Below, one piece after another: positions 2 to 18,130 of a stretch of 30,879 bases of DNA. The stretch comes from a virus. A program made the translations under genes and the position numbers. Location: positions 1 to 30,879 of IMG/VR virus record IMGVR_UViG_3300024518_000533; one strand, written 5' to 3'. The notes beneath the pieces were generated by a model. It had not been told where the DNA came from. It ran no database searches and was given only the letters and a program-made list of their open reading frames with translations. Within the stretch, counting starts at the first letter, position 1. Every line of letters begins with the position of its first letter.

Positions 2-331
2 ACTCTCTACGTAATGAATACTTTTGACGGAGAAAATGCGGCAACAACTACTGCTTTAGATATAAACGGTGTTAACGCTGTGCAGTCGTATATTGTGGAT
101 AACATCATCTACGACCATGCATCGGGCATTGATCTGGAAAAGGACAATCTTGGCAGCGGGCAGATCGGATGGAACCTCCTCAACAGCAACACCACTGACG
201 AAACTAACGTCACTGGCAGCATCAACAACCAAACAACGGCTCCTGCGTTTACTAACGAGGGCACAGACGATTATACACTAGGGGCCACTAGTGACGCTAT
301 AGACAACGGCTTAGTTAATCCGGGCACATAA
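2..331 (+). CDS. C-terminal part of a right-handed beta-helix (appendage/tail-fibre-like) protein, 5' partial
   Basis: The reading frame is open from the first bases, so the gene begins before the window; the first internal Met is at 14. What is visible is asparagine-, threonine- and glycine-rich with short hydrophobic strand-like runs (NIIYDHASGIDLEK, WNLLNSNTTDETN). This is the look of the last coils of a parallel beta-helix of the pectate-lyase/tailspike type. It closes with SDAIDNGLVNPG, which resembles the 'SPAIDAG' segment seen near the C-terminus of many such repeat proteins. The 'GAYEY' ending that normally follows is not here but at the start of the next gene, in the -1 frame. The stop overlaps the next start (TAATG). 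A role in host-surface binding or depolymerisation is inference from fold and from its place beside virion genes; no catalytic residues can be judged from this fragment. Confidence 0.6.
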   Translation, partial: TLYVMNTFDGENAATTTALDINGVNAVQSYIVDNIIYDHASGIDLEKDNLGSGQIGWNLLNSNTTDETNVTGSINNQTTAPAFTNEGTDDYTLGATSDAIDNGLVNPGT

Positions 332-948
332 TGGCGAATTCAATAGGCGCATATGCTCAGGGCGGCCTCAATGAGATAGGCGCTTATGAGTACGTGGCGG
401 CTGCTGGTAGTCTTGATCTTACAGCTACCCTAGTTGATATAACAGTAGCCGACCTAGCGGCCACCATGAACTCTACTAATAGTATGACAGCTACTCTGGT
501 GGATGTAGGCGTAGCTGACGTAGATGCTTCCGCTCAGCTAGATAAAGCACTAACAGCCACCCTAGTTGACATAGCCGTAGCGGATGTAGATGCTTCATTA
601 AGCCTATCGCACTCCCTTACAGGAACTCTGGTCGATGTGACTGTAGCGGACATAGATGCTACTGTGAGCTTAGGAGCTAACCTAGACATCACAGCTACTT
701 TAGTTGACATCTCTGTAGCTGACCTAGGAGCGAGTATAGGACTCAACAGGGACCTCACAGCGACACTAACAGACTTAGCAGTAGCTGACCTAGACGCCAC
801 GGTGCTAAATGTCTTAGAGATTACAGCCACAGAAGCAGCAGTAGTAGTGGCCAAGCTCAATGCAGTAGTCGAGCTAGCAGGCAGCGTAGGAGGCACAGAC
901 ACACAGGTACGTAGAGCCCTCTTAACGCTCATAGGGAGACGCAGATAG
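331..948 (+). CDS. repeat protein: beta-helix cap (IGAYEY) plus seven 22-residue repeats
   Basis: A 205-residue protein coupled to the previous gene by TAATG. Residues 1-25 contain two IGAY blocks, the second being EIGAYEYV, the typical last segment of bacterial beta-helix proteins. From about residue 31 to 186 there are seven tandem units with the pattern TATLVDxxVADxDAxxxxxxxL, six of 22 residues and one of 24. They alternate hydrophobic and polar residues as a beta-strand/turn repeat would. The last unit is diverged (TATEAAVVVAKLNAVV) and the C-terminus is basic (LLTLIGRRR). There is no signal peptide or transmembrane segment. No known function is recognised; a fibrous or solenoid appendage subunit is inferred from the repeats and the upstream partner. 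Its 3' end overlaps the conserved upstream part of the terminase frame. Confidence 0.7.
   Translation: MANSIGAYAQGGLNEIGAYEYVAAAGSLDLTATLVDITVADLAATMNSTNSMTATLVDVGVADVDASAQLDKALTATLVDIAVADVDASLSLSHSLTGTLVDVTVADIDATVSLGANLDITATLVDISVADLGASIGLNRDLTATLTDLAVADLDATVLNVLEITATEAAVVVAKLNAVVELAGSVGGTDTQVRRALLTLIGRRR
421..888 (+). repeat. tandem array of seven ~66-bp coding repeats
   Basis: Units begin with ACAG at 421, 487, 553, 619, 691, 757 and 823. Spacing is 66 bp except for one 72-bp unit (619-690). Each encodes TATLVD-xx-VAD-x-DA followed by a variable tail of about 8 residues ending in a hydrophobic residue. Codons differ widely between units (CTAGTT, CTGGTG, CTGGTC, TTAGTT for Leu-Val), so the repeat is conserved as protein and not as recent DNA duplication. 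Confidence 0.85.
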
Positions 949-1004
949 ATATCTATCTACATGAGGGGCAGTCCGAGATAGACGCTGACGATCATCGCTT
1001 TCAG

Positions 1005-2288
1005 GTGGTAGCAGCAGGACGACGCTTCGGCAAGAGCTTCTACGCCGCATACCGGTTATATGAGGCTGCGTCCCACATGACTAAGACACGCATGGATGGC
1101 AGTGTCATTGACCTAACATCAGAGGTAGTGTACTACGTAGGCCCTACCTTCAAGCAGGCACGAGAGAATCTCTGGGAAGTCATGATGGATATGGGCCAAG
1201 GGCTCATAGCAGGTGTCAGACAGAATGAGGGAGAGATTAAGTTAACAAACGGACGACTGATACGGTTCAAGGGCGCAGACGACCCAGACTCCCTACGTGG
1301 AGTGGGGCTCCACTTCGTCGTGATGGACGAGTACGCCTTCATGAAGCCGAGTGTGTGGGAGTATGTGATACGCCCTGCATTAGCCAAAGCCGAGGGCGGT
1401 GCCCTCTTTATCGGGACTCCTGACGGTAAGAACCACTTTTATGACATGTGGCTTGCAGCTACTAACAAGGAAGACCCCAAGAGTGGCAAACCCACCGATC
1501 AGTGGATAGCATTCCAGTTTGCGTCCAAGATCAACACGCACATTGCTGCGGCAGAGATCGAGATGCTTGTCGAGGGGTTGGGTGCCGATGCACGGAAGCA
1601 AGAGCTAGAGGCTAGCTTTGAGGCTACAGGCGGTAAGGTGTTCAATATGAACATGTTTCCTGTCCTCAGACCTGAGTACCTGCAGGGGGAGTATGTCGTA
1701 GCTATTGACTTAGCGGGCTTCTCACAGGCAGAGGGACGGAACAAGTCTAAGAACATGCTAGATGACCACGCCATAGCAGTGGCTGTTATACACGACAAGG
1801 GGTGGCACATCGAGCGCATATACCACGGTAAGTGGGATGTACGCGAGACTGCCTTACGGATAGTCAAGGCGTGGAGAGACCACGGCGGATGTCCGATAGG
1901 CATAGAACGAGGCATGGCCAAGAACGCTGTATGCGGCGAGGATGGTCAGGGCGGGTATCTAGGAGACTTCATGCACAAGTATGGCTTCTTTGAGGTGAAG
2001 ACTCTCACGCACGGCAACCAGAAGAAGCATGATCGTATTAAGTGGGCTATACAGGGCAGAGCAGAGAAGGGTCAGATTACCCTTGAGCCAGACACAGACC
2101 TCCCTATAGACCAAAAGTGGGTAGGCAAGTTCCTCGGCCAAGCTGTAGACTTCCCTAACCCCCTAGCACATGACGACCTGCTAGACGCAGTAGCATACAT
2201 AGACCAGCTCGCAGTAGACGCACACGGCTTTGGTGGTGTGACACTCTATGACGACTGGACCCCGCACGACCTTGAAGTAGGATTCTAA
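1005..2288 (+). CDS. terL: terminase large subunit (packaging ATPase/nuclease)
   Basis: DNA-packaging motor that drives DNA into the prohead and cuts it. The P-loop GRRFGKS lies at residues 5-11 counted from GTG 1005, Walker B at about 103-109 (HFVVMDE). The RNase H-like nuclease carries VVAIDLAG near residue 231, DDHAIAVAVI, and HDDLLDAVAY near 388. GTG 1005 is only the first canonical start; it is almost certainly not the true one. The frame is open back to 915, and codons 951-1004 read IYLHEGQSEIDADDHRFQ, which matches the usual sequence just before the P-loop in this family. The only start-like codon with a Shine-Dalgarno is ATA at 945 (AGGGAG at 933-938), overlapping the previous stop as ATAG. 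No small terminase is recognised in the window. The product would be about 447 residues from 945. The portal follows after one base. Confidence 0.95.
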   Translation: MVAAGRRFGKSFYAAYRLYEAASHMTKTRMDGSVIDLTSEVVYYVGPTFKQARENLWEVMMDMGQGLIAGVRQNEGEIKLTNGRLIRFKGADDPDSLRGVGLHFVVMDEYAFMKPSVWEYVIRPALAKAEGGALFIGTPDGKNHFYDMWLAATNKEDPKSGKPTDQWIAFQFASKINTHIAAAEIEMLVEGLGADARKQELEASFEATGGKVFNMNMFPVLRPEYLQGEYVVAIDLAGFSQAEGRNKSKNMLDDHAIAVAVIHDKGWHIERIYHGKWDVRETALRIVKAWRDHGGCPIGIERGMAKNAVCGEDGQGGYLGDFMHKYGFFEVKTLTHGNQKKHDRIKWAIQGRAEKGQITLEPDTDLPIDQKWVGKFLGQAVDFPNPLAHDDLLDAVAYIDQLAVDAHGFGGVTLYDDWTPHDLEVGF

Positions 2289-4765: not shown

Positions 4766-4820
4766 CACCTAATACCGTACACCCCTTGCGGGAGCGGGAT
4801 ACTTATGAGGAGTCATAGAC

Positions 4821-5609
4821 ATGGCAAAATACTTGGACTACGTAAAGCCCAATGGAGACGGGATTGATGTTGAGATAGGCGAGGCTGCCGAGCAGCAGCA
4901 GGCGCGTGCAAGAGACCCAGAGAGTGGGCAGTTTGTCGCTACACCTGAGACTGTTGATTGGGAGAAGCGTTATCTGGAACTTGAGAAGCTGAACAGCCGT
5001 CAGGCACAGACGCTTGGAGAGTACCGACATACTATTGATGAATACATCACCACCCCTACATCTTCTGAGCCAGTACCTCAAGCAGAAGCTCCGTCGCCTA
5101 TTACGGCGGAAGAAATGTACGAGGACCCAAATGCTGCTGTCCTACGGGCAGTAGACAACCATCCTGTAGTTCAGGAAGCACGTGACCTTAAGGTTAGTAT
5201 GGAGCGGAGGGATAGAGCTGAGAGAGCCGACGCCTTCCAGACGAAACACCCAGACTTCCAAGAGATTGGTGCAACCCCTGAGTTCCAGAATTGGGTCGTA
5301 GAGGACTCTACCAGACAGGACTTATACTCCCGAGGTAACCAATACGATTTCAGTGCTGCGGATGCACTCTTTAGGCTTTACAAGGCTGAGAAGGGCATGA
5401 AGCAAGTAACCACTCAACAGAGTATCCAACAGGCCGAGTTAGTGTCGTCCTCTGGAGAAATGGTACAAGAACCTGCAACGTACAGCCGTTCTGAGTATAT
5501 TAACAAACTCAAGCGGTCGAAACAAGGGGACTTGGACGCTGAGGATTGGGTACGGACCCATGTCGCGAACTACCGAGTAGCCCTCCAGAGTGGGAATGTC
5601 CGTGACTAA
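4821..5609 (+). CDS. capsid assembly scaffold protein
   Basis: 262 residues, acidic and charged, with long predicted helices and low-complexity Gln/Ala stretches (GEAAEQQQARARD), directly before the major capsid gene. This composition and position are typical of scaffolds, which fill the prohead and are released on maturation. Visible parts: N-terminal DPESGQF, a helical segment at about 45-75 (WEKRYLELEKLNSRQ), a Pro-rich linker at about 78-95, and a basic C-terminal region (SEYINKLKRSKQGDLDAEDWV) of the kind that contacts coat protein. GAGGAG at 4806-4811 precedes ATG 4821. The assignment is by context and composition and not by a catalytic signature. Confidence 0.75.
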   Translation: MAKYLDYVKPNGDGIDVEIGEAAEQQQARARDPESGQFVATPETVDWEKRYLELEKLNSRQAQTLGEYRHTIDEYITTPTSSEPVPQAEAPSPITAEEMYEDPNAAVLRAVDNHPVVQEARDLKVSMERRDRAERADAFQTKHPDFQEIGATPEFQNWVVEDSTRQDLYSRGNQYDFSAADALFRLYKAEKGMKQVTTQQSIQQAELVSSSGEMVQEPATYSRSEYINKLKRSKQGDLDAEDWVRTHVANYRVALQSGNVRD

Positions 5610-17900: not shown

Positions 17901-18130
17901 CCTCTGCTGCAGCTAGGGTGGTACAAGACCTTGGGGGATGGGACTTATTCCCGATGGACATAAAGAACTGGATACCGGGAGAACAGTCAGGTAATAAGGG
18001 TGAGGAGTTTGATGCTAATAACCCAGCACACAGGAAAGCAGTCGCTGACTATGTGATGTACAAGCTCTCTCTGGAGGACCTTGATCATGAAGGTGGCACA
18101 GCTAATGCTACAGCAATCCGTAACCCATGA
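14972..18130 (+). CDS. largest internal virion / ejection protein with GNAT-like segment
   Basis: 1052 residues, the longest gene here, TAATG-coupled to its neighbour; this is the T7 gp16 position. N-terminal ~230 residues are charged and helical. Residues about 285-350 include glycine-rich weakly hydrophobic stretches (ARAAATGFVGGLVGRELG) that could contact membrane. Residues about 535-640 resemble an acetyltransferase-like domain: an ordered strand (VWKVKTSRLV), then GIGYELYKSAHDEAKSYGSRLVSD, then DVSPAAERMWRKLG and a final strand before QPRSY. The rest (640-1052) is helical, ending GGTANATAIRNP. No lytic transglycosylase motif is visible, unlike T7 gp16. The domain arrangement resembles large polyvalent proteins of phages and conjugative elements that travel with DNA. 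Ejection role inferred from context. Confidence 0.65.
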   Translation: MTTESDRIRAQMAEPFTGGPPAHITPPGVTLDALKKNPQLAMDIGNQAARELGLPEEELAEERAKIARRDLSNEEEAQRLHQIMSEPGARESMTDVDWARRMNLLRDWRDVHPKEASEEQAVSSLATSPTKTGIQRIDDAGTTVMRPSFTGADFPETFPALDNLRPDHPDRMMAQRASEGVDMTSGGPFKTRMLIATSPTQRQQGDELRNFIDTYRDQLPEDLKDSPFMYDQLLQEWLFLQPDKEEPGKWRYTTMEGTGLELGDIGDMMDPEEIFSLSGSVGGVLLTPRGKTKLAGKLFTLGRKGPNARAAATGFVGGLVGRELGWFTEAAITWVRNGTHPTWDEGIDAGIRATALEAFATVAGELGAKILRTASHTIQDFGAKTQGREGVFTDPETVDVANRNIRETQEDMRIMKDVLGHEAMPVTAGTASHSIEVISRENTALANASTKIRDRFKVIEAQGKRSLRRFIEKVWRGNDNVYGTLSRENVIVAANDALGRAGRVSVAQTQDGVVHFSPRGVVGEDGVVRSDVPASFGVHVEPNGPVWKVKTSRLVDEDIDMTDTGIGYELYKSAHDEAKSYGSRLVSDADVSPAAERMWRKLGKEDNITIRQHPDAARDPETGHLLADGPVFEVIQPRSYTESLLDHYTKARTKAGGPRLLPKRDDLGRIKKTEEQAEFSRFLREPGKDELDAIVADTSANPLIKQRFKEAILADYERAVFVKNKRGQTVVDQDLFEEWIGETSGTLRKFFDADDMLTIRRPGGIHAVVERQKAMMDTIGAEINRVIDIDIGAVSLLKEENQRRLWNQVQSLTGKEQRQLFKLLDNVPGVPRGQLGNSVRNIVVEEMEGDLLRMSKGANVEAFNKWIKVVAPENGDGVIRNIWPAEATEWIRNLKVIRNTLQRRTDRRMVVGTGTDMNPAGLALTRVIFGPLSRAQRFFTAARRKQVRGGAAKASELVTDPEALKLFASIRVHRLESSAAARVVQDLGGWDLFPMDIKNWIPGEQSGNKGEEFDANNPAHRKAVADYVMYKLSLEDLDHEGGTANATAIRNP

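Follow-up and report, generated by a model that had tools for sequence, protein, structure and literature searches.

Translation of the terminase large subunit (TerL) of a phage recorded in IMG/VR very probably starts at an AUA codon, which lies at position 945 of the window analysed here. The basis for this start is the position of the codon, the boundary of conservation that coincides with it, the lack of other starts, the Shine-Dalgarno sequence, and the recurrence of such a codon in the family. Rare AUH starts as such have been described before. The open-licence literature searched contains no report of a phage packaging motor that starts at AUA, nor of repeated gains of such a start, and it is in this respect that the TerL of the window differs from known phage terminases. 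What makes the finding interesting is that ATA recurs in a single essential phage gene.

Gene identity and the start region

The window is the whole 30,879-nt virus record IMGVR_UViG_3300024518_000533 (IMG/VR, positions 1 to 30,879; ~30.9 kb), in which the structural genes reside on the plus strand and the replication genes on the minus strand. TerL is recognised by profile matches (phrog_2, i.e. PHROG 2, 1.2e-39; Pfam Terminase_6N, PF03237, 2e-14) and by the motifs AAGRRFGKS and LH..Q, both invariant across the aligned sequences (n = 29). The fold match is T4 gp17 (3cpe, E 3.1e-14), with a low TM-score, a domain arrangement that is not superposed and a model mean pLDDT of 72.6. The P-loop ATPase and nuclease are features shared with phage terminase large subunits (PHROG 2; T4 gp17; Thermus phage P74-26 TerL), as indicated by these fold and profile matches, and an SU10/P22-type portal gene, likewise assigned from profile matches, follows downstream at 2290. 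The GenBank phage and plasmid collections contain distant TerL relatives only (<60% identity). Among prokaryotic genome contigs there are three TerL matches, the best of which (L353, 51% identity) resides on a contig binned with a Myxococcota metagenome genome; this contig may be a prophage or a mis-binned virus, and the match is uninformative on the host of the window phage. The features of the TerL start region are as follows.

331-948, plus strand: upstream ORF of 205 aa with imperfect repeats (ATLVDxxVADLDA-like), ending in TAG 946-948 and overlapping ATA945
912-914, plus strand: in-frame TAG that closes the TerL frame upstream, read from the sequence
933-938, plus strand: Shine-Dalgarno sequence AGGGAG, with a 6-nt spacer to ATA945 and a predicted duplex of -9.0 kcal/mol
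943-958, no strand assigned: perfect 16-bp palindrome AGATAGATATCTATCT, spanning the ATA codon
945-947, plus strand: ATA, very probable TerL start codon, aligned with an ATG/GTG/TTG start in 26/29 sequences
945-2288, plus strand: terminase large subunit (TerL; ATPase and nuclease), 447 aa plus stop, from profile and fold matches
951-1004, plus strand: conserved N-terminal segment IYLHEGQSEIDADDHRFQ, comprising helix 7-13, which carries the LH..Q motif, and the start of strand 19-23
1005-1007, plus strand: GTG, earliest canonical codon in the frame; rejected as the TerL start, as it lacks a Shine-Dalgarno sequence and the conserved N-terminus would be lost
1017-1037, plus strand: Walker A motif (P-loop) GRRFGKS, from translation and alignment

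The TerL frame is open from 915 to 2285, and reading it onward from the TAG at 912-914 confirms the earlier claim that it contains no ATG, GTG or TTG before GTG1005. Other major genes of the window have a usable ATG. The original prediction had also identified codons 951-1004 as IYLHEGQSEIDADDHRFQ, the conserved N-terminal segment of the family, which the alignment and codon comparison bear out, and had described AGGGAG six bases before the ATA together with an ATAG overlap with the preceding ORF, both of which are present (AGGGAG at 933-938; the stop of ORF 331-948 is TAG 946-948). The weight given to this overlap as evidence of a start should be tempered, however, because codon 2 is a conserved Asp (GAY), which makes ATAG automatic; in one of the relatives that also has ATA (L021), the upstream gene does not end at the ATAG. 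The proposed likeness to ATGA overlaps elsewhere in the window holds at some junctions (e.g. 18127-18130) but not at others, where TAATG or a gap is found. The repeat ORF at 331-948 has no Pfam or PHROG match, and the gene upstream of TerL is a different one in L021. A reassigned genetic code is unneeded, since TerL reads normally by table 11 and aligns with its relatives; no tRNA genes are found in the window.

Conservation at position 945 and recurrence of rare starts

Comparisons were made with 80 IMG/VR TerL relatives and an alignment of 29 sequences. Among the 80, members of the close clade start at the homologue of codon 945, which is ATG in L002, L003, L004, L006, L007 and L010, GTG in L011, L024 and L035, and TTG in L008 and L018. 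The start column of the alignment holds Met (ATG/GTG/TTG) in 26/29 sequences and Ile (ATA) in the other three, namely the window, L016 and L021. Relative to six relatives (L002, L003, L004, L006, L007 and L008), codons 2-20 are mostly identical or synonymous, with 7 identical, 11 synonymous and 1 nonsynonymous against L002, and 2, 14 and 3, respectively, against L006. In the 30 nt that precede 945, by contrast, the same six agree with the window at 5-13 of 30 positions. From the synonymous pattern downstream and the low identity upstream it follows that selection on the TerL protein begins at 945, and the boundary of protein-level conservation is, by these codon comparisons, at that position. 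The original prediction had envisaged, as an outcome that would remove the claim, relatives that start at GTG1005 with no conservation upstream; instead, codons 2-20 are conserved and the relatives start at the homologue of 945.

L016 (tataggggacgaagATA) and L021 (cataggggaataatATA) have ATA at the same codon as 945, each with a GGGGA Shine-Dalgarno sequence. A complete exact scan of IMG/VR for ATA at the start position before the LH..Q and P-loop motifs returned 45 stretches, in which L016 and L021 alone, besides the window, have ATA there without a nearby canonical start. Two contigs with the same junction, L133 and L213, lack a canonical start and read TAA ATA AGC ATC GAC ATA GAC; their first ATA sits four codons further up, where relatives have M (ATG). 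The remaining stretches carry ATG, GTG or TTG at the expected start or close to it. The matches listed by scans of IMG/VR for ATH and for ATC/ATT provide no estimate of AUC or AUU frequency. Among the further members listed that have no canonical start, L122 and L189, sister TerL genes from different samples, share ATC at the start position, the ATC of L189 being the first codon past an in-frame TAA. Also among them, L191 has ATC, or an adjacent ATT, where relatives have ATG or GTG, with GAGGGAG upstream, and in L156 an ATT three codons upstream occupies the place of the ATG of its relatives.

In a tree of 46 close members, built with the start residue left out, the three ATA lineages are separate and each is nested among ATG, GTG and TTG lineages. 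Placing an ATA/ATC label on this tree requires 5 changes, at least 4 of them by well-supported branches; as judged from these sequences, the TerL family has gained the ATA start more than once. The nearest relatives of the window TerL (78-82% identical) have ATG, and ATA is not conserved within its own subclade, so that retention of the rare start by close relatives, a supporting rather than a defining feature, is not seen for the window ATA, and the recurrence is one across lineages. A canonical start is missing in 2/105 distinct TerL genes (~2%) in a set that was not selected for start codon and from which L301, cut by a contig end, was set aside; most loci numbered L082 and above had been chosen for an ATH start codon and are unusable as rates. 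The corresponding figure for the portal gene is at most 1/102, and the excess in TerL is not significant.

These comparisons bear on the possibility that the ATA stems from faulty sequencing or assembly, with G as the actual base 947 and ATG as the start, a reading that we consider improbable. A single A/G difference would be enough, the close relatives have ATG at the homologous position, and base 947 is covered by one contig: contig L001, although identical, stops short of the start, its first residue corresponding to residue 33 of the query made from GTG1005, and an exact pattern search found no second contig with the window junction and, for L016, its own contig only. ATG at the junction in L002, L003, L004, L006 and L007 had in fact been named beforehand as telling against the original prediction. 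That outcome makes the window an ATG-to-ATA variant, but the alternative of an error, which had been raised at the same time, is weakened, as the same variant occurs in two separate lineages. With ATA in three separate lineages and a canonical start missing in several further members, a variant found in ~2% (2/105) of distinct members is a much more likely cause than a random error that happened to hit this very codon.

Initiation signals and other candidate starts

The predicted anti-Shine-Dalgarno pairing is -9.0 kcal/mol at ATA945 versus +0.3 at GTG1005, and a pairing of -9.0 or better occurs at 2.6% of random window positions. For L016 and L021 the predicted energy is -6.4 each. Shine-Dalgarno strength is not significantly higher for ATA/ATC starts than for other starts within the close clade (p = 0.13) but is so when all members are pooled (p = 0.013); compensation of the rare start by Shine-Dalgarno strength is thereby suggested.

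The palindrome at 943-958 is the sole one of 16 bp in the window, and the exact 16-mer is absent at the L016 and L021 starts. It could have arisen by chance, act as a protein site or fold into a small hairpin; such a hairpin is predicted over the AUA and would hinder initiation. The nearby stretch CTCATAGGGAGA (928-939) was considered as a promoter for a phage RNA polymerase and rejected, its exact match being unique and its near matches occurring at chance frequency.

The initiation signals also speak to the choice among codons in the frame. Initiation at a nearby near-cognate codon, either ACG939 or ATC951, seems quite unlikely: although each is in frame and one base from ATG, and an ACG at the offset of ACG939 occurs in L016 as well, ACG939 abuts the Shine-Dalgarno sequence with no spacer and is missing in L021, ATC951 lies two codons past the family start with a spacer of 12 nt, and both fall outside the start column. 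Still less probable is a -1 ribosomal frameshift within the overlap at 915-948, which would yield a fusion of the repeat protein with TerL. The repeat ORF and the TerL frame do overlap by ~33 nt in the window, but no slippery heptamer was seen on inspection of 915-948, ATG-bearing relatives have a different overlap or none, and conservation does not extend upstream of 945. The upstream gene of L021 stops 22 nt before the ATA, and a separate stop 12 nt upstream closes the TerL frame; the upstream gene ends before the TerL frame opens, and frameshifting is ruled out there. An overlapping upstream ORF with a slippery site is not kept among the relatives (L021 lacks the overlap, the window the heptamer), and the -1 shift listed in the original prediction falls on the same two points.

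As foreseen, a start at GTG1005 would truncate the protein near the P-loop, since GRRFGKS begins four residues after the beginning of that codon, and, going by the structural model, the product would lack helix 7-13 and the LH..Q motif, together with the first half of the strand that leads into the P-loop. In the isolated phage SSU5, the annotated TerL start lies well upstream of the GTG1005 equivalent. That the window phage makes a shorter TerL from GTG1005 is scarcely credible, even though this is the first canonical start in the frame, for it has no Shine-Dalgarno sequence (+0.3 kcal/mol), purifying selection acts on codons 2-20, both the LH..Q motif (invariant in 29/29 sequences) and half of the strand before the P-loop would be lost, and a canonical-only reading would put the L016 start at codon 38, beyond the P-loop.

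Proposed mechanism and comparison with known rare starts

The original assignment of ATA945 as the TerL start is thus supported by the family start column, by the sole well-placed Shine-Dalgarno sequence, and by recurrence in separate lineages. From it we infer initiation at the AUA itself, the residue inserted, a low yield and sensitivity to IF3. The AGGGAG at 933-938, as a strong Shine-Dalgarno sequence, would position the 30S subunit, and ribosomes terminating at the overlapping UAG (946-948) perhaps help in its placement; such coupling via the upstream stop may contribute in the window and in L016 and would not be required, as L021 shows. The ordinary initiator fMet-tRNA (anticodon CAU) would then read AUA with a third-position mismatch, giving TerL a predicted N-terminus of fMet-Asp-Ile-Tyr-Leu-His. 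IF3 would penalise this mismatch and hold TerL synthesis to a fraction of that from an AUG. TerL is required in few copies per virion, and because few copies of this motor protein are needed, a weak start and the reduced output that it entails would probably be tolerable. In a reconstituted system, rising IF3 disfavours weak third-base pairs (PMC10158994). A more far-reaching proposal, which we regard as doubtful, is that IF3-sensitive AUH starts (AUA, AUC, AUU) evolve repeatedly in the TerL family because selection favours a brake on synthesis of the packaging motor. Late packaging might in this way be linked to the state of the initiation factors in the infected cell.

Natural AUA starts found in the open-licence literature searched are cellular. 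In Staphylococcus aureus, infC, ccpN and citZ have proven AUA starts and cvfC1 an AUU start, and extended Shine-Dalgarno motifs are reported for infC, ccpN and cvfC1 (PMC13009471). These last three resemble the window TerL in combining AUA or AUU at the gene start with a strong Shine-Dalgarno sequence. Reporters in S. aureus reached ~10% of the AUG level when the medium was poor, and ccpN as much as 30% when it was rich (PMC13009471). Unlike the window TerL, the S. aureus genes are cellular, and the ccpN and cvfC1 starts are shared by relatives and have been confirmed by ribosome profiling. TerL, in contrast, is a packaging ATPase of a phage; its nearest relatives use ATG, and its start is assigned here from sequence.

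Similar comparisons can be drawn with other bacteria. As cited in PMC13009471, the AUU starts of Escherichia coli infC and pcnB keep expression low, with infC under IF3 autocontrol; a rare AUH start is common to these genes and TerL, but the codon is AUU rather than AUA, and phage TerL is not known to be linked to IF3. When the rpoS start of E. coli O104:H4 is changed from ATG to ATA, production of the protein continues, though reduced by up to 5-fold (PMC12864459), and earlier reporter work, as quoted in that paper, gives ATA an efficiency of up to 1%. The rpoS change is the same single change as in the window TerL, although it is a laboratory-acquired mutation and not a lineage-level feature. 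A GTC start in Streptomyces sigR is described in PMC5472188 as mediating repression of that one gene through IF3; both sigR and TerL have a non-canonical start, but the codon and gene class differ, and in the account given there the regulation of sigR is shown experimentally.

Gene calling limited to ATG, GTG and TTG would truncate the window TerL next to the P-loop and that of L016 beyond it, with other members likewise affected. The occurrence of AUG, GUG, UUG, AUA, AUC and AUU at one homologous TerL site amounts to a natural series in an essential phage gene, which could be used to test how start codon strength relates to packaging-motor dose, as well as compensation by the Shine-Dalgarno sequence.

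Elsewhere in the window, the sequence GGAGTCATAGACATGGC at 4809-4824, which lies before and at the ATG of the gene at 4821, is nearly identical in L369, L371 and L374, a degree of conservation among several relatives that exceeds the need of a Shine-Dalgarno sequence alone.
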